NCBI GenBank assembly: GCA_029063275.1
Contig: JAIDOO010000027.1
Coordinates: forward strand, 1 to 6,177
Direction of reading: 5' to 3'
DNA from: Clostridia bacterium
GTDB taxonomy: Bacteria; Bacillota; Clostridia; Christensenellales; Borkfalkiaceae
DNA length: 6,177 nt
A program made the position numbers and the translations under genes. Of the stretch, positions 1 through 6,177 are shown piece by piece. How positions within the stretch are numbered: the stretch's first letter is position 1; the number at the start of each line of letters is the position of its first letter. A model generated the notes under the pieces. It was not told where the DNA came from and did no database searches. It saw only the letters and a program-made list of their open reading frames with translations.

Positions 1-1613
1 TCCTTCTTCCACTTATCGCAGTGTTCCCTTAAACAGTTCATTACTCTGAGCGCGAACTCGGTGCCCTCGGGAGTCGTGTGCGATACGCCCTTGACAAGCT
101 TCGTCAGCTCGTAAAGACCTATGTATCCGAGCGAAATGGTGGAATAGCCGTCAAGCAGATATTTGTCTATCTTTTCGCCGCTTTCCAGTCTTGCAATCGC
201 GCCGTACTGCCAGTGCACGGGAGATACGTCGCTGGTTACGCCCATAAGTGCGTTGTGGCGGCACATCAAGGCCTCGAAGCAGAGCTGCAATCTCTCTTCC
301 AGAATTTCCCAGAACTTGTTTTCGTCGCCCTGCGCTATAATTCCGCACTGGGGAAGATTTATCGAAACAACGCCCTGATTAAACCTGCCCTCGAATTTGT
401 AGTTTCCGTTTTCGTCCTTCCAGGGGGACAGGAACGAACGGCAGCCCATGGGAGAAAATACGTTGCCCTCATAATTTTCGCGCATCTTTTTCGCGGAAAT
501 ATAGTCGGGGTAAAGACGCTTTGACGAGCACTTAACCGCAAGACGGGTAAGGTAATCGTACTTTCCGCCCTTTAAGCAGTTGTTTTCGTCCAAAACGTAA
601 ATAAGCTTGGGGAACGCGGGCGTAACGTACACGCCCTTTTCGTTTTTGATGCCCTCGTAACGCTGTTTCAATATCTCTTCGATTATCATAGCGTTTTCTT
701 CGATATATTCGTCGTTTTCGTCAAGATACAAAAACAGGGTAACGAAGGGCGACTGACCGTTGGTGGTCATCAAAGTGTTAATCTGATACTGTATCGTCTG
801 AACGCCCGCTTTAAGCGCCTCTTTCAGGCGCATTTCCACAAAGCGCCCCTTCGTTGCGTCGTCAAGAGTATCGCCGAAAGTCAGATTACACTGTTCGATA
901 TATTTTTCCTTGGAACGGCGCAGATATTTTCCGAGGTGCGCCACGTTTACCGATTGTCCGCCGTACTGCGAGGACGCGACCGACGCGATAATCTGCGTTG
1001 TTACCGTGCAGGCGGTCTGGAAAGACTTGGGGCTTTCAATCATTTTGCCGTTCATAACGGTGCCGTTATCGAGCATGTCTTTAATATTAATAAGACAGCA
1101 GTTGAAAATGGGCTGAATGAAATAGTCGGCGTCGTGGAAATGGATTGCCCCGTCTTTGTGCGCCTTTGAAATATGCTCGGGCAAAAGCAGACGGTTGGTC
1201 AGATCCTTTGAAACTTCGCCCGCGATTAAATCGCGCTGGGTCGAAGCAGTGCGCGCGTTTTTGTTGGAGTTCTCCTCCATGACGTCCTTATTGTCGTTTT
1301 TAATGAGCGAAAGTATGCTGTCGTCCGTGGTGTTGGCTTTACGGACGAGCGCGCGCTCGTAACGATAAAGAATGTAAGCCTTCATAAGCGGATACTTACG
1401 AAGCTCCATCAGGTGTTCTTCCACAAGGTCCTGAATCTGCTCTACGAGAAAGCGTGATCTGTGGCGTGAAGCAATATCGTCCACGATTTCGGCAATCTGC
1501 TCCTCGGTAACCCTGTCCTCAAAGTCAACCGCCTCGTTAGCCTTGCTTATGGCAACGAGTATCTTGTTTTTGTCGAATTCGGCTGTCGAGCCGTCGCGTT
1601 TTATTACTTTCAT
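1..1613 (-). CDS. nrdD: Anaerobic (class III) ribonucleoside-triphosphate reductase, 5' part; runs off the left edge
   Basis: Class III RNR reduces ribonucleoside triphosphates to deoxyribonucleotides in the cytoplasm without oxygen, using a glycyl radical installed by the activase NrdG. Reading leftward from the ATG at 1613 gives an unbroken frame of about 537 codons to the window edge. Residues 1 to about 95 (MKVIKRDGSTAEFDKNKI...) form an ATP-cone allosteric domain. The catalytic domain follows, with FNCCLI (C172/C173), QYGGQS at 216-221 and SPMGCRSF (C391). By position these cysteines match the two active-site cysteines of the family, one of which carries the thiyl radical. The family is usually about 700 residues, so the C-terminal zinc site and glycyl-radical loop lie outside the window, as would any nrdG. 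The start is supported by GGAGGAG at 1620-1626, six bases upstream. Control is probably by NrdR (boxes at 1664-1678 and 1695-1710). The identity is confident. Confidence 0.96.
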   Translation of the reverse strand, partial: MKVIKRDGSTAEFDKNKILVAISKANEAVDFEDRVTEEQIAEIVDDIASRHRSRFLVEQIQDLVEEHLMELRKYPLMKAYILYRYERALVRKANTTDDSILSLIKNDNKDVMEENSNKNARTASTQRDLIAGEVSKDLTNRLLLPEHISKAHKDGAIHFHDADYFIQPIFNCCLINIKDMLDNGTVMNGKMIESPKSFQTACTVTTQIIASVASSQYGGQSVNVAHLGKYLRRSKEKYIEQCNLTFGDTLDDATKGRFVEMRLKEALKAGVQTIQYQINTLMTTNGQSPFVTLFLYLDENDEYIEENAMIIEEILKQRYEGIKNEKGVYVTPAFPKLIYVLDENNCLKGGKYDYLTRLAVKCSSKRLYPDYISAKKMRENYEGNVFSPMGCRSFLSPWKDENGNYKFEGRFNQGVVSINLPQCGIIAQGDENKFWEILEERLQLCFEALMCRHNALMGVTSDVSPVHWQYGAIARLESGEKIDKYLLDGYSTISLGYIGLYELTKLVKGVSHTTPEGTEFALRVMNCLREHCDKWKK

Positions 1614-1657
1614 TCTGTTCTCCTCCGACATCATCCGTAAAAATCGGTTCGTTTTTG

Positions 1658-1686
1658 ATAATACCACATATTTTGTGGTTTGTCAA
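1658..1686 (-). promoter_or_regulatory. nrdD promoter P1 (sigma-A type, extended -10)
   Basis: On the minus strand there is a perfect TTGACA -35 (1681-1686), a 17-bp spacer, and a TATTAT -10 (1658-1663) preceded by TGG, giving an extended -10. Transcription would begin near 1651, leaving a leader of about 38 nt before the nrdD ATG. The spacer is filled almost entirely by the proximal NrdR box, so NrdR binding should directly occlude RNA polymerase. Confidence 0.85.
1664..1678. promoter_or_regulatory. NrdR box, proximal (inside promoter spacer)
   Basis: The sequence ccacatattttgtgg is an imperfect palindrome resembling the NrdR consensus (acaCwAtATaTwGtgt). It is one base shorter than the usual 16 bp. 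NrdR is the ATP/dATP-sensing repressor of ribonucleotide reductase operons and usually binds paired boxes about three helical turns apart. The centre of this box is about 31.5 bp from that of the distal box, which fits cooperative binding. Confidence 0.85.
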
Positions 1687-1694
1687 TACCGCCA

Positions 1695-1710
1695 CCACAA
1701 TATATTGTGG
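1695..1710. promoter_or_regulatory. NrdR box, distal (upstream of -35)
   Basis: The sequence ccacaatatattgtgg is a perfect 16-bp palindrome and a close match to the NrdR box consensus. It lies eight bases upstream of the nrdD -35 hexamer. Together with the box at 1664-1678 it forms the paired operator typical of NrdR-controlled nrd genes. Confidence 0.9.
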
Positions 1711-1742
1711 TTTTGAGCCGGTTTCCGGCGGCAGTGAAGTCA

Positions 1743-1781
1743 AGTATAGACTATACCGCAGGCGTTTGTCAAGACCTGCGG
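1743..1781 (-). promoter_or_regulatory. Possible second nrdD promoter P2 embedded in inverted repeats
   Basis: On the minus strand TTGACA (1767-1772) is followed after 18 bp by TATACT (1743-1748), which would start transcription near 1736, upstream of both NrdR boxes. Two symmetric elements overlap it. The arms ccgcagg (1756-1762) and cctgcgg (1775-1781) flank the -35, and the 13-bp palindrome gtatagactatac (1744-1756) overlaps the -10. Such symmetry around core hexamers suggests an operator, but the binding factor is unknown. Neither strand has a U-tract directly after the 7-bp stem, so it is not a convincing intrinsic terminator. Confidence 0.45.
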
Positions 1782-1817
1782 CAAAAATATTTTTATGAAA
1801 ATTTTAAAAGCCGTTTT

Positions 1818-1845
1818 TTGAGAATTTTATGTAAAATATTCTCAA
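1818..1845. repeat. Inverted repeat downstream of the HNH gene
   Basis: Perfect 8-bp arms ttgagaat (1818-1825) and attctcaa (1838-1845) surround a 12-base A/T-rich centre. It lies just beyond the stop codon of the minus-strand HNH gene, where a terminator would be expected. On the minus strand, however, the hairpin is followed by an A-run rather than a T-run, so a canonical intrinsic terminator is doubtful. It could be an mRNA 3'-end stabiliser or a protein-binding site. Confidence 0.35.
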
Positions 1846-1855
1846 TCTAACATTT

Positions 1856-2293
1856 TTACCTTGTAAACTTTTCAAGATAGCGCAAATCCAATTTCCATTC
1901 TCTTACGGCATTCCTGCGGCGGTGCGCTTCGTTCGCCTCGCCCAGCGCTTTGCGGTACTCCGAATAAGTACAGCCGTTCACCTTCATAAAATGCCCGCAA
2001 GCCCGCTCTTCACCGCCCAAAAGGGTAGTTCTGCCGATATGGATAACCTCATGGCAGGCTTTGCAGATAGCCACCACGTCCGAAAGGCGCTGAACCTCGC
2101 CCTCCTCGTCGTACTCCCACCTCTCGTGCGCTTCGAGCCGTTTAGACGGCGCTCCGCAAATCATACATTTGCCGTCGGCGCGCGCGTATGCCTCTTTGCG
2201 GACGACGTCCCATTGCGCGGGGGATAAAATACTTCTTAAGTTACTGTACCAACAGCTGTCGGGGACAAGCTCGAAATTAAGTTTATGCTCCAT
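1856..2293 (-). CDS. Small HNH endonuclease-family protein
   Basis: A 145-residue cytoplasmic protein with an HNH/zinc-finger nuclease-type core. The order is C43-x2-C46 (KCMICG), then LEAHERWEY with H56, then ICKACHEVIHIG with C77-x2-C80, H81 and H85. The two CxxC pairs would hold a structural zinc, and the histidines would form the beta-beta-alpha-metal site. The N-terminus (LNFELVPDSCWYSNLRSIL) resembles what I recall of small stand-alone bacterial HNH proteins of similar length. The biological substrate of this group is not known to me; DNA cleavage is inferred from the fold. The ATG at 2293 is the only plausible start: no alternative start codon precedes the conserved N-terminal segment. 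No good ribosome binding site precedes it, because the promoter -10 ends only six bases upstream. It sits between nrdD (same strand) and a divergent sigma-factor operon, with its own promoter. Confidence 0.88.
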   Translation of the reverse strand: MEHKLNFELVPDSCWYSNLRSILSPAQWDVVRKEAYARADGKCMICGAPSKRLEAHERWEYDEEGEVQRLSDVVAICKACHEVIHIGRTTLLGGEERACGHFMKVNGCTYSEYRKALGEANEAHRRRNAVREWKLDLRYLEKFTR

Positions 2294-2299
2294 ACCGCC

Positions 2300-2328
2300 A
2301 TTATAATACCTTTTTTAAAAATTATCAA
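2300..2328 (-). promoter_or_regulatory. Promoter of the HNH gene; predicts a leaderless mRNA
   Basis: On the minus strand TTGATA (2323-2328), a 17-bp spacer and a consensus TATAAT (2300-2305) form a strong sigma-A-type promoter. Counting the usual -7 to +1 spacing from the end of the -10 puts the transcription start at 2293, the A of the HNH ATG. The transcript would therefore have no 5' untranslated region and no Shine-Dalgarno sequence. Confidence 0.75.
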
Positions 2329-2339
2329 GCGGCGCGCTT
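2327..2339. repeat. Small palindrome between divergent promoters
   Basis: The arms aagcg (2327-2331) and cgctt (2335-2339) with a three-base centre lie at the edge of the HNH -35 and 22 bp before the sigma-operon -35. It could be an operator shared by the divergent units, but five-base arms can arise by chance. Confidence 0.2.
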
Positions 2340-2361
2340 TATGCAGATTCAGCAACGATTC

Positions 2362-2390
2362 TTGATTATTCACCGAATTTGTGCTAAAAT
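2362..2390 (+). promoter_or_regulatory. Promoter of the ECF sigma / RsgI-like operon
   Basis: TTGATT (2362-2367), a 17-bp spacer and TAAAAT (2385-2390) preceded by TGC (extended -10) form a good housekeeping-type promoter. Transcription would start near 2397, giving a leader of about 123 nt before the TTG start. I could not find a convincing ECF-type promoter (GAAC-like -35 with CGTC-like -10) here, so classic autoregulation by the encoded sigma factor is not visible. Confidence 0.65.
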
Positions 2391-2419
2391 TTTCATAAAG
2401 AATTTTATTTACTATGCAA

Positions 2420-2459
2420 TAAATACGGCGTTTGCCGTGTTTAATAACCGGAATGTTAT
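2420..2459 (+). promoter_or_regulatory. Two consecutive hairpins in the sigma-operon leader
   Basis: The predicted leader RNA can form a hairpin from 2420-2429 pairing with 2434-2443, with core acggc/gccgt, loop gttt and one G-U pair. Directly after it comes a short one, ataac (2444-2448) with gttat (2455-2459). Neither ends in a U-tract, so they are not terminators. They may be simple leader structure or regulatory; I recognise no known riboswitch class. Confidence 0.3.
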
Positions 2460-2463
2460 AAAT

Positions 2464-2523
2464 ATGAGATCAGACGGAAGAAACGATAACCCTAACTACA
2501 TATCCCGTGAGGTGTTAAATTGA
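2464..2523 (+). CDS. Possible 19-codon upstream ORF overlapping the sigma start
   Basis: An ATG at 2464 opens a 19-codon frame (MRSDGRNDNPNYISREVLN). Its TGA (2521-2523) overlaps the TTG start of the sigma gene at 2520-2522. Such an arrangement can couple translation of the two frames. The sequence before the ATG (ccggaatg) is only a weak ribosome binding site, and the peptide has no recognisable features, so it may be chance. The frame continues open upstream to 2341, but that part overlaps the operon promoter and is unlikely to be translated. Confidence 0.2.
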   Translation: MRSDGRNDNPNYISREVLN

Positions 2524-3047
2524 AAAAACGGGAAATAGATGCTATGCTCAGACGCATAGCAAAAGGCGACAACAACGCTTTTGAAAAACTGTATATCGAA
2601 ACTAAACAAGGGGTGTATGCTTTTCTATACTCTTACTTTAACAATCAAACCGACTGCGAAGACGCAATGCAGACGGTTTATTTGAAAATCAAAACAAGCA
2701 TCTCGCAATATACGTTCGGAACAAACGGCTTGGCGTGGATTTTGCAGATAGCAAAAAACACTGCGTTAAACGAAATCCGCGCAAACATAAATTATCAAAA
2801 GTTGAAAAGTGCGGAAAGCCGTGCAGAATCGGTTTCTTTTGAAAACGTCGTTTTGAAGGATTCGCTGATGTCGACTATGAAGCGTGTTTTGGACGAAGAA
2901 GAACAGCGAATAATCATACTACACGTTATATGGTCGTACAAACATAAAGAAATTGCTGAAATACTGAATTGCCCTATCGGCACCGTAACGTCAAAATACA
3001 AACGGGCAATAGATAAAATGCAAAAAACGTTAAAGGAGGTACGGTAA
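2520..3047 (+). CDS. ECF-type RNA polymerase sigma factor
   Basis: This 175-residue protein has the two-domain layout and length of extracytoplasmic-function sigma-70 factors, which direct RNA polymerase to a small regulon when released from a membrane anti-sigma factor. Region 2 spans about residues 8-88, with the DCEDAMQTVYLKI segment at 45-57 matching the usual ED-x-x-Q-x-x-F/Y-L core. Region 4 spans about 115-170, with a helix-turn-helix around HKEIAEILNCPIGTVTSKYKRA (142-163, dashed by the turn at NCPIG). The start is TTG at 2520, chosen because GAGGTG (2509-2514) is correctly placed and an in-frame stop (2508-2510) rules out any earlier start. Its stop overlaps the ATG of the next gene by one base (TAATG), so the two are translationally coupled, as expected for a sigma/anti-sigma pair. 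No SigI-type C-terminal domain is evident. The ECF subgroup cannot be assigned by eye. Confidence 0.92.
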   Translation: MKKREIDAMLRRIAKGDNNAFEKLYIETKQGVYAFLYSYFNNQTDCEDAMQTVYLKIKTSISQYTFGTNGLAWILQIAKNTALNEIRANINYQKLKSAESRAESVSFENVVLKDSLMSTMKRVLDEEEQRIIILHVIWSYKHKEIAEILNCPIGTVTSKYKRAIDKMQKTLKEVR

Positions 3048-4426
3048 TGAAATCTTGGAAAAAACAGTTAAAAGACGAATTTAACGCGGCTGTTCCCGCA
3101 CTCAAAGACGAAGTTATGAGCGCCCCCATTATAACGGCAAGGGAAGACGCGTCGGATATTCGTAACGGCAACGTTCTTATAAAGCGAAAAATCGGTATAT
3201 GGACTTCCTGCGTTGCGGCGGCAACACTTATTATCGTAATTGCTTTCCTGGGAATATTCGGAGTATTCAGTCCGAAAAACTTCATAGACAGATTTGTATT
3301 CACTCTCGAAATCAATCCCGCCGTATCTTTTGTAACCGACAAAAACGGAAACGTAAAAAATGTTAACGCACTTAACAAAGACGCCGACATTATTTTGTCC
3401 GACGAAAGCACGTTAGAAAAATTTAAAAATAAGCCTATATCCGAAGCGGTTGTAGTTTTTACCGACTGCGCCGCAAGATTGGGTTATCTCGATTTAACTT
3501 TGACGCAAAATGCCGTGCGGCTTTCAAGCAGTTCGGACACGGATAAAAATTTGATGAACGCAACTTCCGACAGTTTACGAAGCTATTTTAAGACAAACGG
3601 AATTTATGCGGCTGTGGTCGAAGATATAATATCGGTACAAGATTTAAGCGAACGCATAGGAATATCCGGCGCAAATACGCTGTCAGAACTGACGGACAAA
3701 ATCGAAAGTCTTTCCGTACGTTACGCCGAACGCAATATCGGCAATGCAACCGAAGAACAACTGAAAAGCCTTTACGAAACTTATGTGGTCGCAACGCAAT
3801 TATTTGATTTTGTACAGGGCGAACTGCTTGATAACGTAAACACTATAATACGCAATGCGCAAATGCTTTCGCAAATGGGAATATGCAGTTACAATATAAT
3901 GATGCATAAGGATAATCCCTTTAATCCCATTCCTGCCGATTATTGGACAATAAAGAAATATCCCAACGCACAATACGGCGCCGAATTTGCAGTGCTTATG
4001 AATGAAATGGAAGATTTGCTTGCCGAATATGAAAGCGCGTTCGGCGTGTCTATCGGAAGTTTAAACGATTTGACTGCGGCAGCCGACGCATACTCGTCCC
4101 TTTCGGGTATTGATTTTGAGATTTTGTTTAAAACGCTTACGGCAAACGATTTTCTTGCGTCTGCCGAAAACTATGTGGGTATGCTTAAAAATATCGGAAG
4201 CGACGTTGCTACACTTGAAGTATTGTTGAACGCCCCTGAAACTTCGGAAGAATACGCAGAGCAACTAAAAACAGCGCTCGGTACAATGTTCGATTACAGA
4301 TCGGAACGCTATCTCTATATTTACGAAGATCAAAGAGAACAAATTTCTCAGACCGATTACGATACTTTTATAAATAAAATCGTGGAAGATTACGGTTCTC
4401 TCGAAAATTTTTGGAATAAAAAATAA
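3047..4426 (+). CDS. Membrane RsgI-like putative anti-sigma factor / envelope sensor
   Basis: This 459-residue single-pass protein starts one base inside the sigma gene stop, with a strong AAGGAGGT (3033-3040). Residues 1-50 are cytoplasmic, charged and partly helical. Residues about 51-74 (IWTSCVAAATLIIVIAFLGIFGVF) are the transmembrane segment. The outside part begins with FVFTLEINPAVSFVTDKNGNV (split at NP, N90-P91). This matches the pattern of the extracytoplasmic middle domain of RsgI anti-sigma factors, where the Asn-Pro bond is autocleaved. The remaining ~330 residues look mostly helical and have no carbohydrate-binding module I recognise. The cytoplasmic part has no His or Cys, so no zinc anti-sigma (ZAS) motif, and does not look like the RsgI N-terminal domain. 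Sigma inhibition is therefore inferred from gene order and topology. Its closest relative in the window is the downstream lipoprotein, with which it shares the INPA motif and a LGYLD/YGYLD segment. Confidence 0.8.
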   Translation: MKSWKKQLKDEFNAAVPALKDEVMSAPIITAREDASDIRNGNVLIKRKIGIWTSCVAAATLIIVIAFLGIFGVFSPKNFIDRFVFTLEINPAVSFVTDKNGNVKNVNALNKDADIILSDESTLEKFKNKPISEAVVVFTDCAARLGYLDLTLTQNAVRLSSSSDTDKNLMNATSDSLRSYFKTNGIYAAVVEDIISVQDLSERIGISGANTLSELTDKIESLSVRYAERNIGNATEEQLKSLYETYVVATQLFDFVQGELLDNVNTIIRNAQMLSQMGICSYNIMMHKDNPFNPIPADYWTIKKYPNAQYGAEFAVLMNEMEDLLAEYESAFGVSIGSLNDLTAAADAYSSLSGIDFEILFKTLTANDFLASAENYVGMLKNIGSDVATLEVLLNAPETSEEYAEQLKTALGTMFDYRSERYLYIYEDQREQISQTDYDTFINKIVEDYGSLENFWNKK

Positions 4427-4444
4427 AAATTTTATATTTGTTGC

Positions 4445-4499
4445 AATAAAAACCTTCGTCCATGTGTTTAATGGTTAAAAGAAAACGGAGGTTTTTATT
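4445..4499 (+). terminator. Hairpin with U-tract that also contains the next gene's ribosome binding site
   Basis: Bases 4445-4459 (AATAAAAACCTTCGT) can pair with 4485-4499 (ACGGAGGTTTTTATT) to form a 15-bp stem with one G-U pair. The 25-base loop includes a further small CCAT/ATGG helix (4460-4463 with 4471-4474). The GC-rich upper stem followed by TTTTTATTTT looks like an intrinsic terminator for the upstream gene. The same 3' arm contains GGAGG (4487-4491), the Shine-Dalgarno sequence of the lipoprotein gene at 4502. In read-through RNA the ribosome binding site would thus be hidden. No strong promoter is visible in this 75-bp gap; TTGCAA (4441-4446) with TTTAAT (4467-4472) has a poor 20-bp spacing. 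Confidence 0.6.
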
Positions 4500-4501
4500 T
4501 T

Positions 4502-6007
4502 ATGAAGAAAAAATTTGCAGCTATTGCCTTGTCTGCAATGCTGGCGGGTTCTATGTGCGCCCTTACGGCTTGCGATTTCGGCGGAACAGACAAAGCAGAA
4601 AAACAGGCTTATGTAAGCCTTGACATAAACCCCGCTATCGAACTCATTGTCGATAAGGACAACAACGTAGTCAGCGTTCGCGGAGAGAACGAGGACGGAC
4701 AGGTTCTTCTCTACGAAGAAACGGGAATTAAGGGCGAAAAAATCGACGCCGCCATTAACAAAATTACCGACTTGGCTGTTCGGTACGGCTATCTCGACGA
4801 AGATAATAAAGTTGTCGATACGCTCGTAACGTCGGGCGACAATGCTTTCGCTTCCGAAATTTTAAGCAAAGTCAATACTTCGGTTACGGCTACCGCCGCT
4901 AACTTGGGACTAACCGTTACCACCGACGGCGAGGGCGCATATTCACTTCTTCGTAAAATGGACGAAGTTAAAAAGCAGTTCCCCAACAATAAAGCCGTTC
5001 AGAATATGTCGGTATCCAAATTCAAGCTTGCGCTTTCCGTATCGGAAACGGGCGAAATAACTCTTGACGCGGCTGTTGCGCTCGACGATTCAAAACTTAT
5101 TGAAATGCTCAAAGAAGTAAGCCCGCAAATAGAAGAATTTGCAACCGCAACTTTTGTTGAAGCAAAAACAAAAGCCCTTGCCGTTTACGAACAGGCAACC
5201 GAACTTGCCGGCTATGCGGTTTATACGCAGTATTATCTCGAAAAAATGCTTTCACACCCCTTGACGGCTTATTACGGCGGCGTATATCAGATGTATGCTT
5301 CGGCGGCAAAAGGATTTGACGTTATCTGCGACGTTGCCTCCCTTGCGGCAAACGTAAGCAACTATCCCCTTAACGAAGCGCAGATAAACGCAGTTGTTAC
5401 CGCTCTCGGTATGGAATCTGCGGACGCACTTAAAAATTCCAAAGGCGAAATCACGGTTGACAGCATAGAGGCTTATGCGGATAAACTGTTTAAGAATACG
5501 CCTGCGTCCGAAACATTGGAACAGACAAAAGGGGCTTTAACAAAAGCCCTTGCACAAGCGGAATCGGTTATCAAAGAGAAAGTAAACGAAATGACCGCAG
5601 AATACAAACCGCAAATCGAAACGGCACTTGCAAGCGCGCGTCAGGTAACCGCTACGGTAGAGAGCCTAATTCCTGAAGGAATTAAGAACGCTTTTAATAC
5701 CGTAACTTCCGACCTGAAAGATATTTTAAATGAAATTGACGGTATTATTGCAGGCGAAAAATTAGATCTCAACGTATTGAGAGATAAAGCAAACCGCCTT
5801 GACGAAAAGGCAACGGAATATCTTAATAAGATTAAAGCCGACATGTCGGAAGAAGAATTTGCCGAGGTCGAGGCAAGAAAAGCGGCGGCTATTGCCAAAA
5901 TGTCCGCGCAGAAACAAGCGCTTGACAAAGCGTTGGACGATGCGGCAACGGCGGCAAAAGATTATCTTTCCCAATTGAAAGAAGCCCGTAAAAACGCCGT
6001 TAAGTAA
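4502..6007 (+). CDS. Secreted lipoprotein with RsgI-like INP domain and long helical C-terminus
   Basis: This 501-residue protein begins with a lipoprotein signal peptide: MKKK, a hydrophobic core, and lipobox L21-T-A-C24, so C24 would be lipidated and the protein tethered to the outer face of the membrane. Twelve residues later comes AYVSLDINPAIELIVDKDNNV (split at NP, N43-P44), the same RsgI-middle-domain-like motif as in the upstream membrane protein. YGYLDEDNKVVDTLV follows. Residues about 190-330 are helical and Tyr/Ala-rich. About 330-501 is a Lys/Glu/Ala-rich, probably coiled-coil region (QTKGALTKALAQAESVIKEK and onward) ending in KEARKNAVK. There is no cytoplasmic part, so it cannot inhibit a sigma factor directly. 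It may be a regulon product, a co-sensor, or a ligand of the membrane protein. GGAGG (4487-4491) lies ten bases before the ATG but inside a stem. It is followed by its own terminator. Enzymatic function: none recognised. Confidence 0.85.
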   Translation: MKKKFAAIALSAMLAGSMCALTACDFGGTDKAEKQAYVSLDINPAIELIVDKDNNVVSVRGENEDGQVLLYEETGIKGEKIDAAINKITDLAVRYGYLDEDNKVVDTLVTSGDNAFASEILSKVNTSVTATAANLGLTVTTDGEGAYSLLRKMDEVKKQFPNNKAVQNMSVSKFKLALSVSETGEITLDAAVALDDSKLIEMLKEVSPQIEEFATATFVEAKTKALAVYEQATELAGYAVYTQYYLEKMLSHPLTAYYGGVYQMYASAAKGFDVICDVASLAANVSNYPLNEAQINAVVTALGMESADALKNSKGEITVDSIEAYADKLFKNTPASETLEQTKGALTKALAQAESVIKEKVNEMTAEYKPQIETALASARQVTATVESLIPEGIKNAFNTVTSDLKDILNEIDGIIAGEKLDLNVLRDKANRLDEKATEYLNKIKADMSEEEFAEVEARKAAAIAKMSAQKQALDKALDDAATAAKDYLSQLKEARKNAVK

Positions 6008-6018
6008 CAACTGACAGC

Positions 6019-6058
6019 AAAAAGCTCTCGGATACATATCCCAGAGCTTTTTTTATTT
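6019..6058 (+). terminator. Intrinsic terminator of the lipoprotein gene / operon
   Basis: Twelve bases after the TAA, aaaaagctct (6019-6028) pairs with agagctttt and following T (6043-6052). Inside this, after a C/C mismatch, ggat (6030-6033) pairs with atcc (6038-6041) around the loop acat. A run of seven T then ATTTT follows. The flanking A-run on the 5' side means it could also terminate leftward transcription. Confidence 0.9.
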
Positions 6059-6177
6059 TAAAGTGCCGTTTTATAAAATCCGGGATTTTAATTCCCTATG
6101 ATTATACACATCTAACGCAGCCGACGACTTAATAGCGGTAGATCTCGGAGGTCGCAGAATAAATAAAAAAAAAACAG
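6059..6177. other. Right-edge intergenic stretch with no recognisable gene
   Basis: This stretch holds no supported gene. It contains the 15-bp palindrome aaaatccgggatttt (6075-6089), a possible but weak -10 (TATGAT, 6097-6102) without a good -35, and a GGAGGT-like ribosome binding site near 6149-6154 followed by an A-rich run to the window end with no start codon at normal spacing. It may be the leader of a gene beyond the edge. I looked for tmRNA-like or riboswitch-like sequence and found nothing I could support. Confidence 0.4.

Follow-up and report, generated by a model that had tools for sequence, protein, structure and literature searches.

RsgI signalling is known to be switched by self-cleavage of the SEAL domain. 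We equate this domain with the Pfam family RsgI_M and take its name from the title of Brogan 2023. Site-1 cleavage of RsgI is described as constitutive, its fragments remaining associated until the wall is defective, after which RasP acts (PMC10202637), and the model for RsgI of Clostridium thermocellum runs through autocleavage, RseP, and ClpXP (PMC12203970). Pairs of extracytoplasmic function (ECF) sigma factor and anti-sigma factor under intramembrane proteolysis, sigma-V/RsiV and sigma-W/RsiW, are tabulated in PMC10202637. Here we describe a three-gene locus from a Clostridia bacterium of the Borkfalkiaceae (assembly GCA_029063275.1, contig JAIDOO010000027.1, positions 1 to 6,177, forward strand), calling this whole stretch of 6,177 nucleotides the window and its genome G000 (1.61 Mb, 393 contigs, 95% complete). 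An ECF sigma factor gene is followed by genes for two SEAL proteins, a predicted membrane anti-sigma factor and a predicted lipoprotein, and the new element is one promoter-like signature whose exact matches in the genome number two, one upstream of the sigma gene and the other upstream of the lipoprotein gene. With a rough probability of 0.57, the three genes form a dedicated circuit, in which the SEAL anti-sigma factor holds the ECF factor and the ECF factor drives its own promoter and that of the lipoprotein gene only. The system consists of the following features.

2416-2445, plus strand: signature GCAATAAA-N15-GTTTAAT ahead of the sigma gene, one of two exact genome matches
2520-3047, plus strand: ECF sigma factor gene (175 amino acids, TTG start; region 2 at residues 26-88, region 4 at residues 122-167)
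3047-4426, plus strand: predicted membrane anti-sigma factor gene (459 amino acids; RsgI_M match, AlphaFold2 model)
3314-3319, plus strand: predicted N90/P91 autocleavage site, motif LEINPA, from the proline alignment with RsgI2 chains
4443-4472, plus strand: signature GCAATAAA-N15-GTTTAAT ahead of the lipoprotein gene, the other exact genome match
4502-6007, plus strand: predicted SEAL lipoprotein gene (501 amino acids; RsgI_M match, lipobox, AlphaFold2 model)
4571-4573, plus strand: codon of cysteine C24 in the lipobox LTAC, called from sequence only
4628-4633, plus strand: predicted N43/P44 autocleavage site, motif LDINPA, from the proline alignment with RsgI2 chains

Like SigI-RsgI of Bacillus subtilis, the system has a SEAL domain next to a single transmembrane helix, an Asn-Pro (NP) motif, and a site-2 protease of the RseP/RasP type, and B. 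subtilis RsgI (8t9n) is the top Foldseek match; unlike it, the system has an ECF factor with region 4, no RsgI_N match, and an extra SEAL lipoprotein with a promoter-like site. With the SigI/RsgI sets of C. thermocellum it has in common a periplasmic domain for autocleavage, predicted in our case, the RsgI2 chains beginning at the aligned proline, but there the ectodomains sense carbohydrates and the partners are SigI, whereas here we find a helical ectodomain without known relative, an ECF partner, and a lipoprotein. As in sigma-V/RsiV and sigma-W/RsiW, the gene of an ECF factor adjoins that of a membrane anti-sigma factor, here a predicted one, and a site-2 protease probably releases the ECF factor, except that the predicted site-1 step is SEAL self-cleavage rather than a separate protease and that the regulon apparently has two promoters. 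The order of sigma gene, SEAL membrane protein, and second SEAL protein is also that of four SigI loci (L122, L144, L146, and L149), which differ in their sigma factor, a true SigI wherever scanned (L146, L144, and L122). Pairing of an ECF factor with a SEAL protein is not by itself rare, since Clostridium, Anaerobium, and a Fusobacteria metagenome-assembled genome (MAG) have it too; pairs of this kind were seen at L269, L272, L285, and L295, in Clostridium sp., Anaerobium acetethylicum, C. beijerinckii, and the Fusobacteria MAG, and the three membrane proteins scanned from them (L269, L285, and L295) have no RsgI_N. We found no description of a SEAL lipoprotein as a sigma factor target among the papers listed in literature searches, outside which lay the main papers on SEAL and on ECF classification.

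The sigma protein shows what defines an ECF (group IV) factor, regions 2 and 4 in a short protein. Sigma70_r2 (E 1.9e-9) and Sigma70_r4_2 (E 6.8e-10) are both over the Pfam cut-offs, and the NCBIfam sigma70-ECF score is 72.4 bits (cut-off 42.9). No SigI model is found among the best 25 of 91 NCBIfam matches (the 25th at 52.7 bits), and the true SigI proteins used for comparison (L146, L144, L122, and L077) score 152 to 180 bits with TIGR02895. Region 4 is present, unlike in SigI, which has the C-terminal SigI domain in its place.

The membrane protein gene starts on the last base of the sigma stop codon (position 3047 is shared), and we infer that its product is the anti-sigma factor of the adjoining ECF factor. 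The protein consists of a cytoplasmic part (residues 1-49, with P17 and P27 as conserved positions), a transmembrane helix (50-70), the SEAL domain (83-203), and a helical ectodomain up to residue 459. RsgI_M (PF23750; residues 86-203, E 9.1e-13) is the sole Pfam domain over the cut-off. In the AlphaFold2 model (predicted local distance difference test score, pLDDT, 86.6), strands 83-88 and 92-97 flank the NP turn, and Foldseek places the RsgI SEAL structures on top with probability 1.00 and a modest E of 2e-4. A profile of 49 membrane proteins (alignment A6: the window's and 48 of the 120 matches listed) finds the solved SEAL domains of RsgI2 and RsgI9 (8u9o) at E 4e-4 to 1e-3; P91 aligns with the first residue, also a proline, of RsgI2 chains 8heq_B and 8hdj_B, RsgI9 chain 8u9o_B is likewise aligned from its residue 1, and NP is kept in 49 of 49 rows. 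RsgI_N has no match in the protein at E<=10 (Pfam) and is matched in all three RsgI controls, which come from SigI loci (E 1e-5 to 2e-3, with one over the Pfam cut-off). Of the marks of RsgI, the protein thus has a SEAL domain beyond one transmembrane helix and lacks both RsgI_N and a partner gene for SigI.

Three membrane proteins of genus g43 (L068:6221-7594, L073:2313-3677, and L174:911-2278) lack NP and are longer by about 25 residues at the cleavage turn, although the lipoproteins of the same loci retain DINP; they have perhaps switched from self-cleavage to a protease-cut loop. A 994-residue protein with two SEAL matches (residues 103-191 and 240-310) adjoins an ECF-like sigma factor at L169:3667-6651.

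The lipoprotein begins with a signal peptide and lipobox (C24), followed by the SEAL domain (residues 36-141) and a helical ectodomain (146-501), and RsgI_M (residues 36-141, E 1.9e-20) is again the sole Pfam domain over the cut-off. In its AlphaFold2 model (pLDDT 86.7), NP lies at the turn between the first two strands, and the RsgI SEAL structures again head the Foldseek results (probability 1.00, modest E 2e-3). A profile of 55 lipoproteins (alignment A5: the window's and 54 of the 120 matches listed) finds the SEAL domains of RsgI2 (8hdj and 8heq) and B. subtilis RsgI (8t9n) at E 1e-6 to 4e-5, and P44 aligns with the first residue (P) of chains 8hdj_B and 8heq_B. C24, N43, and P44 are invariant in all 55 rows and in a set of 26 lipoproteins from genomes, window included. 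At E<=0.001, RsgI_M has no match elsewhere in the 1.61 Mb of G000; because these two are the only genome matches and C24, N43, and P44 are invariant, their presence at one locus is more than chance. Among the 50 Foldseek matches listed, RsgI SEAL structures alone are of high probability, and the helical part of neither protein has such a match. Apolipoprotein matches of the lipoprotein profile look like generic helix matches and were dismissed, and a hairpin over the ribosome site of the lipoprotein gene (CCTTCGT/ACGGAGG) is absent from the close relative L074 and was taken as chance.

The SEAL domains of the two proteins are homologous by hhalign (98.6%), whereas their helical ectodomains are not (1.8%), which disfavors a co-sensor that arose by duplication; a whole-length alignment of the two proteins extends past SEAL and was given no weight there. 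The preliminary description of the window had placed the three genes exactly where we find them, had called the first a two-domain, classic ECF factor rather than SigI, and had seen an INP motif near the anchor of both downstream proteins; all of this is borne out, the motifs LEINPA and LDINPA lying inside the RsgI_M matches. It had staked its case beforehand on the INP regions matching the RsgI middle domain, and they do so by both profile and structure. Its further idea of a lipid-anchored second copy of the sensor holds for the SEAL domain and fails for the ectodomains, so the lipoprotein is no copy.

The signature was first noticed by reading the regions upstream of the sigma and lipoprotein genes in loci with a sigma gene, a SEAL membrane protein gene, and a second SEAL gene, hereafter trios. 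As the search patterns were derived from the loci themselves, genome searches test uniqueness and recurrence, not discovery; 47 aligned sites were likewise collected by pattern, and their fixed bases and 15-base spacer are thus imposed. In G000, GCAAYAAA-N15-GTTTAAT has exactly two exact matches, both in the window, and the reversed-pattern control has none; with up to two mismatches, 9 further sites appear, versus 5 in the control. A G-T motif is described for ECF promoters (PMC10575876), which the signature fits on its -10 side, and an AAC triad is described in PMC6056542, to which the A-A-C/T run on the -35 side of the signature is akin. A two-block matcher favors A/T-rich pairs in L057, L058, L064, and L067, and exact patterns were used there.

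To establish how far trio and signature recur, loci (L numbers) were collected from a survey of 300 genomes (G numbers), 99 of which were positive for RsgI_M; 119 regions around SEAL matches were taken, weaker matches being left out. Searching these and the window, 120 loci in all, with our own iterated profiles gave 93 pairs of sigma and SEAL genes. Since a lipobox regular expression fired on 20 sigma-adjacent proteins (in those inspected, on a cysteine within the transmembrane helix) and missed some real lipoproteins, lipoproteins were counted by position, sigma-adjacent or not. A second SEAL gene lies directly downstream in 35 of the 93 pairs, and by our own sorting these trios comprise 26 of the window kind, 3 with a second ECF code (L083, L088, and L091), 2 others (L089 and L115), and 4 with SigI. 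The exact signature precedes the sigma gene in 21 of the 35 trios, the second SEAL gene in 25, and both in 20, all 20 being of the window kind; it was found in 5 of the 58 pairs without a second SEAL gene. Over the trio loci, 46 matches occur in 746,682 bases (both strands) versus 0.4 expected from shuffles. In a tree of the 93 sigma factors, 26 of the 29 that bear the signature fall within one clade of 33 (support 0.886).

The signature was also searched in 43 relatives, 34 with SEAL matches and 9 from the same genus without. By our own tally, 46 of the 54 exact sites lie at sigma or lipoprotein genes of the SEAL system and 8 elsewhere, with 5 for the reversed control. In 15 of these genomes there are exactly two exact sites, both at the system. 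Within the genus, seven genomes are listed with an RsgI_M match, G000 included, and many others have none; this patchy distribution indicates that the SEAL system is often lost or moved. A named set of 47 lipoprotein-type loci (L223-L268 and L281) has several contigs in common with the unnamed set and is not independent of it. Here 24 of 47 loci have the order sigma, SEAL, SEAL, and in 22 of these 24 the exact signature lies no more than some 100 bases upstream of the lipoprotein open reading frame (ORF) or in its start region; at L225 it lies about 750 bases upstream of that ORF, and at L233 it was not found. Eight further loci of the 47, mostly at contig edges, have lipoprotein and signature with no sigma gene in view.

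The signature is also found where the genes are apart. In G088 the sigma/anti-sigma pair is on contig C3 and the lipoprotein gene on C13, each well inside its contig, with a site at both, and in G256 the two genes, both with a site, are 12.5 kb apart. G273 and G289 have them on different contigs with both sites in the form GTTTATT, which has only these two matches in each genome (3 control matches over the 12 genomes searched), and in G095 pair and lipoprotein are split at contig ends and may or may not be linked. G161, G200, and G214 each have two matches to a second ECF code, TTGCRATAAAA-N13-TATTWAT (up to one mismatch), at the sigma and lipoprotein genes, and G122, G174, and G175 have one each (control 1); the code has no match in G000 or G278. 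Judged from these patterns, a promoter-like code that changes does so at both genes together.

For SigI loci the corresponding pattern is ACCCY-N19-CGYANTCTAT. G235 has perfect sites at both sigI and the second SEAL gene, and G243 has a perfect site and a one-mismatch site at these two genes. In G082 and G086 the pattern stands upstream of the second SEAL gene alone, and in G066 of sigI alone; further one-mismatch sites occur in G235, G086, G066, and G000, with 6 control matches in all. The two-site logic is therefore repeated in two of the four SigI trios (G235 and G243). At one SigI locus, the second SEAL-like protein (L146:4229-4960) has neither NP nor lipobox, yet a perfect SigI-like site upstream. 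In two lipoproteins beside SigI-RsgI (L144:6224-7264 and L122:4886-6070), a PepSY domain follows SEAL.

Each partner is also met without the other. Among the genomes from which regions were taken, 13 (G055, G072, G093, G099, G139, G143, G146, G160, G182, G192, G208, G247, and G297) have a single RsgI_M match, at a gene without a sigma neighbor. A lipobox is present in 12 of these 13 lone SEAL proteins (L123, L140, L150, L156, L157, L160, L162, L164, L165, L166, L168, and L171; in L165 by eye), L167 having an unclear start, and predicted SEAL lipoproteins can stand alone. That of L140 (G297) has 533 residues, near the size of the window protein. No signature was found at the lone gene in the 7 genomes searched, L164 (G139) having a degenerate look-alike; sigma-A-like hexamers are seen by eye upstream in 5 of 6 lone loci, with a perfect TTGACA-N17-TATAAT in L162 and L168. 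Matches away from the system in such genomes lie inside an ORF (G055) and 24 bases before an unrelated ORF (G182), the latter meaning that the pattern alone can fall in promoter-like places. The converse case, a sigma/anti-sigma pair with the signature and no second RsgI_M match, is given by G213 (94% complete; pair L173) and G237 (84%; pair L105), each with a single exact site, at the sigma gene.

The proposed circuit would work as follows. The ECF factor would be held at the membrane by an anti-sigma factor whose SEAL domain would cut itself; as in published work on RsgI, each SEAL domain would be cleaved between N and P, with non-covalent contacts keeping the pieces together. Once the membrane protein has lost its ectodomain to pulling or unfolding, RseP would cut the stump and free the factor; G000 has a gene of this site-2 protease type (C345; PF02163 205.7 bits, 370 amino acids, HExxH). 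The freed factor would transcribe its own operon and the lipoprotein gene through the signature. In the most speculative step, the lipoprotein would be what the pathway makes: a surface protein whose tie to its lipid anchor is the same kind of breakable joint. The cell would then sense loss through one type of break point and replenish a protein with a break point of that type. On this view the sigma factor would respond to trouble at the cell surface, its main task being to restock one lipoprotein. A stricter version, in which sensor and product form a mechanical fuse with a common self-cut, force-separable SEAL joint, on a transmembrane anchor in the first and a lipid anchor in the second, and the factor has no job besides itself other than replacing the lipoprotein, is put forward tentatively; the same two-promoter logic recurs with the second ECF code and, in part, with true SigI.

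That the lipoprotein is a co-sensor, which must bind the membrane protein for signalling, could be supposed from the neighboring genes and common domain, but it is improbable: the lipoprotein gene has its own promoter-like site, it is unlinked in G088, G256, G273, and G289, and the partners occur separately. Because the two proteins are alike in SEAL only and lone SEAL lipoproteins exist, the lipoprotein looks like a product and not a co-sensor. An induced lipoprotein might instead compete for load or ligand, or cap the SEAL stump, and so shut the response off. The signature ahead of its gene, the homologous SEAL domains, and the frequent adjacency of the genes would all suit such a feedback modulator; the non-homologous ectodomains, the 13 genomes with a lone SEAL gene and no SEAL anti-sigma factor, and the pairs of G213 and G237 without a SEAL lipoprotein do not, and we regard it as unlikely. 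Unrelated ectodomains are also what ordinary envelope genes brought together by coincidence would show, with domain and order in common by chance, yet this is hardly credible and already contradicted by the recurrence of the order and by the 46 signatures where 0.4 were expected.

A competitor that is quite possible, if still doubtful, is a wider regulon with degenerate sites, in which the lipoprotein is only the best-conserved target, as in an ordinary envelope-stress regulon. Several observations weigh against the dedicated circuit, and some of them favor this competitor. Of the 26 window-kind trios, 5 lack the exact site upstream of the sigma gene and 1 lacks it upstream of the lipoprotein gene, and 8 of the 34 SEAL-bearing genomes have none (G137, G142, G148, G174, G227, G273, G289, and G297), three of which (G137, G142, and G227) hold trios with variant sites; variant forms in some trios are GTTGAAT, GTTTAAC, and GTTTATT. 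Degenerate or weak targets may escape exact patterns, and G000 is 95% complete in 393 contigs. Extra exact sites lie away from SEAL genes in G122 and G144, and others are found in G136, G180, G187, and G205. In the named set, 15 of 47 loci have neither sigma neighbor nor exact site, although one of them, L265, is the G273 locus with its GTTTATT form. NP is absent from 3 of the 26 membrane proteins of alignment A2, and the SigI case is weakened by G235, whose second SEAL protein lacks both NP and lipobox. Six of the 13 lone lipoproteins, the same six whose upstream hexamers were read, belong to a shorter kind (378-404 residues) than the window's. The pairs of G213 and G237 fit neither a co-sensor nor a sole product and would need another target. 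These two genomes, the 15 named loci, the shorter lone kind, and the weak G235 case slightly lowered our odds for the dedicated circuit, its stricter version, and the co-sensor, and raised those for the wider regulon. Against the wider regulon stand the relaxed search of G000, with its 9 added sites versus 5 in the control, and the 15 relatives with both of their exact sites at the system. In addition, the three off-system sites inspected of the eight lie inside an opposite-strand ORF (G187), between ORFs reading the other way (G205), and over an ORF end, the next ORF starting 63 bases further on (G004, which has no RsgI_M match).

Against this background, the preliminary description was right that an RsgI-type domain is joined to ECF control, though the pairing is not peculiar to this system. 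Nor does its other refuting case apply, since the three genes are neighbors in relatives (35 of the 93 pairs). Of its two roles for the lipoprotein, target or co-sensor, the common signature makes the first likely; a co-sensor of the same ligand is spoken against by the unrelated ectodomains, only the SEAL hinge being homologous. The three-part layout it took to be undescribed is found with SigI as well (4 of 35 trios).

Neighboring genes gave no lead to function: among 154 flanking ORFs of 23 loci (at least 110 amino acids, BLASTP E 1e-8), no family occurs in at least 3 loci, and the window itself offers little flank. Upstream of a minus-strand ORF at 3-1667, presumably an anaerobic ribonucleotide reductase, two palindromes resembling NrdR boxes lie at 1664-1711, ACCACATATTTTGTGGT (by eye) and CCACAATATATTGTGG, the latter with 2 mismatches to the consensus. 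A 145-amino-acid ORF at 1856-2293 (minus strand) has a weak HNH match under the cut-off (E 0.074). Among the 80 retained of 171 loci that encode a relative of the lipoprotein, the closest are mostly from MAGs of uncultured Clostridia and Christensenellaceae, many from the gut of deer, goat, and sheep, and the bacterium studied here is probably also from the gut.

The predicted lipoprotein has no transmembrane stump to process, yet N and P are kept in every aligned row; if its SEAL domain cuts, coming loose must have a use of its own. With a single evident target besides its own gene, the sigma factor would make an unusually clean circuit, with signal, switch, and product in two promoters and three genes. 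That SigI loci repeat this in part suggests an overlooked role for the second SEAL protein in SEAL signalling.

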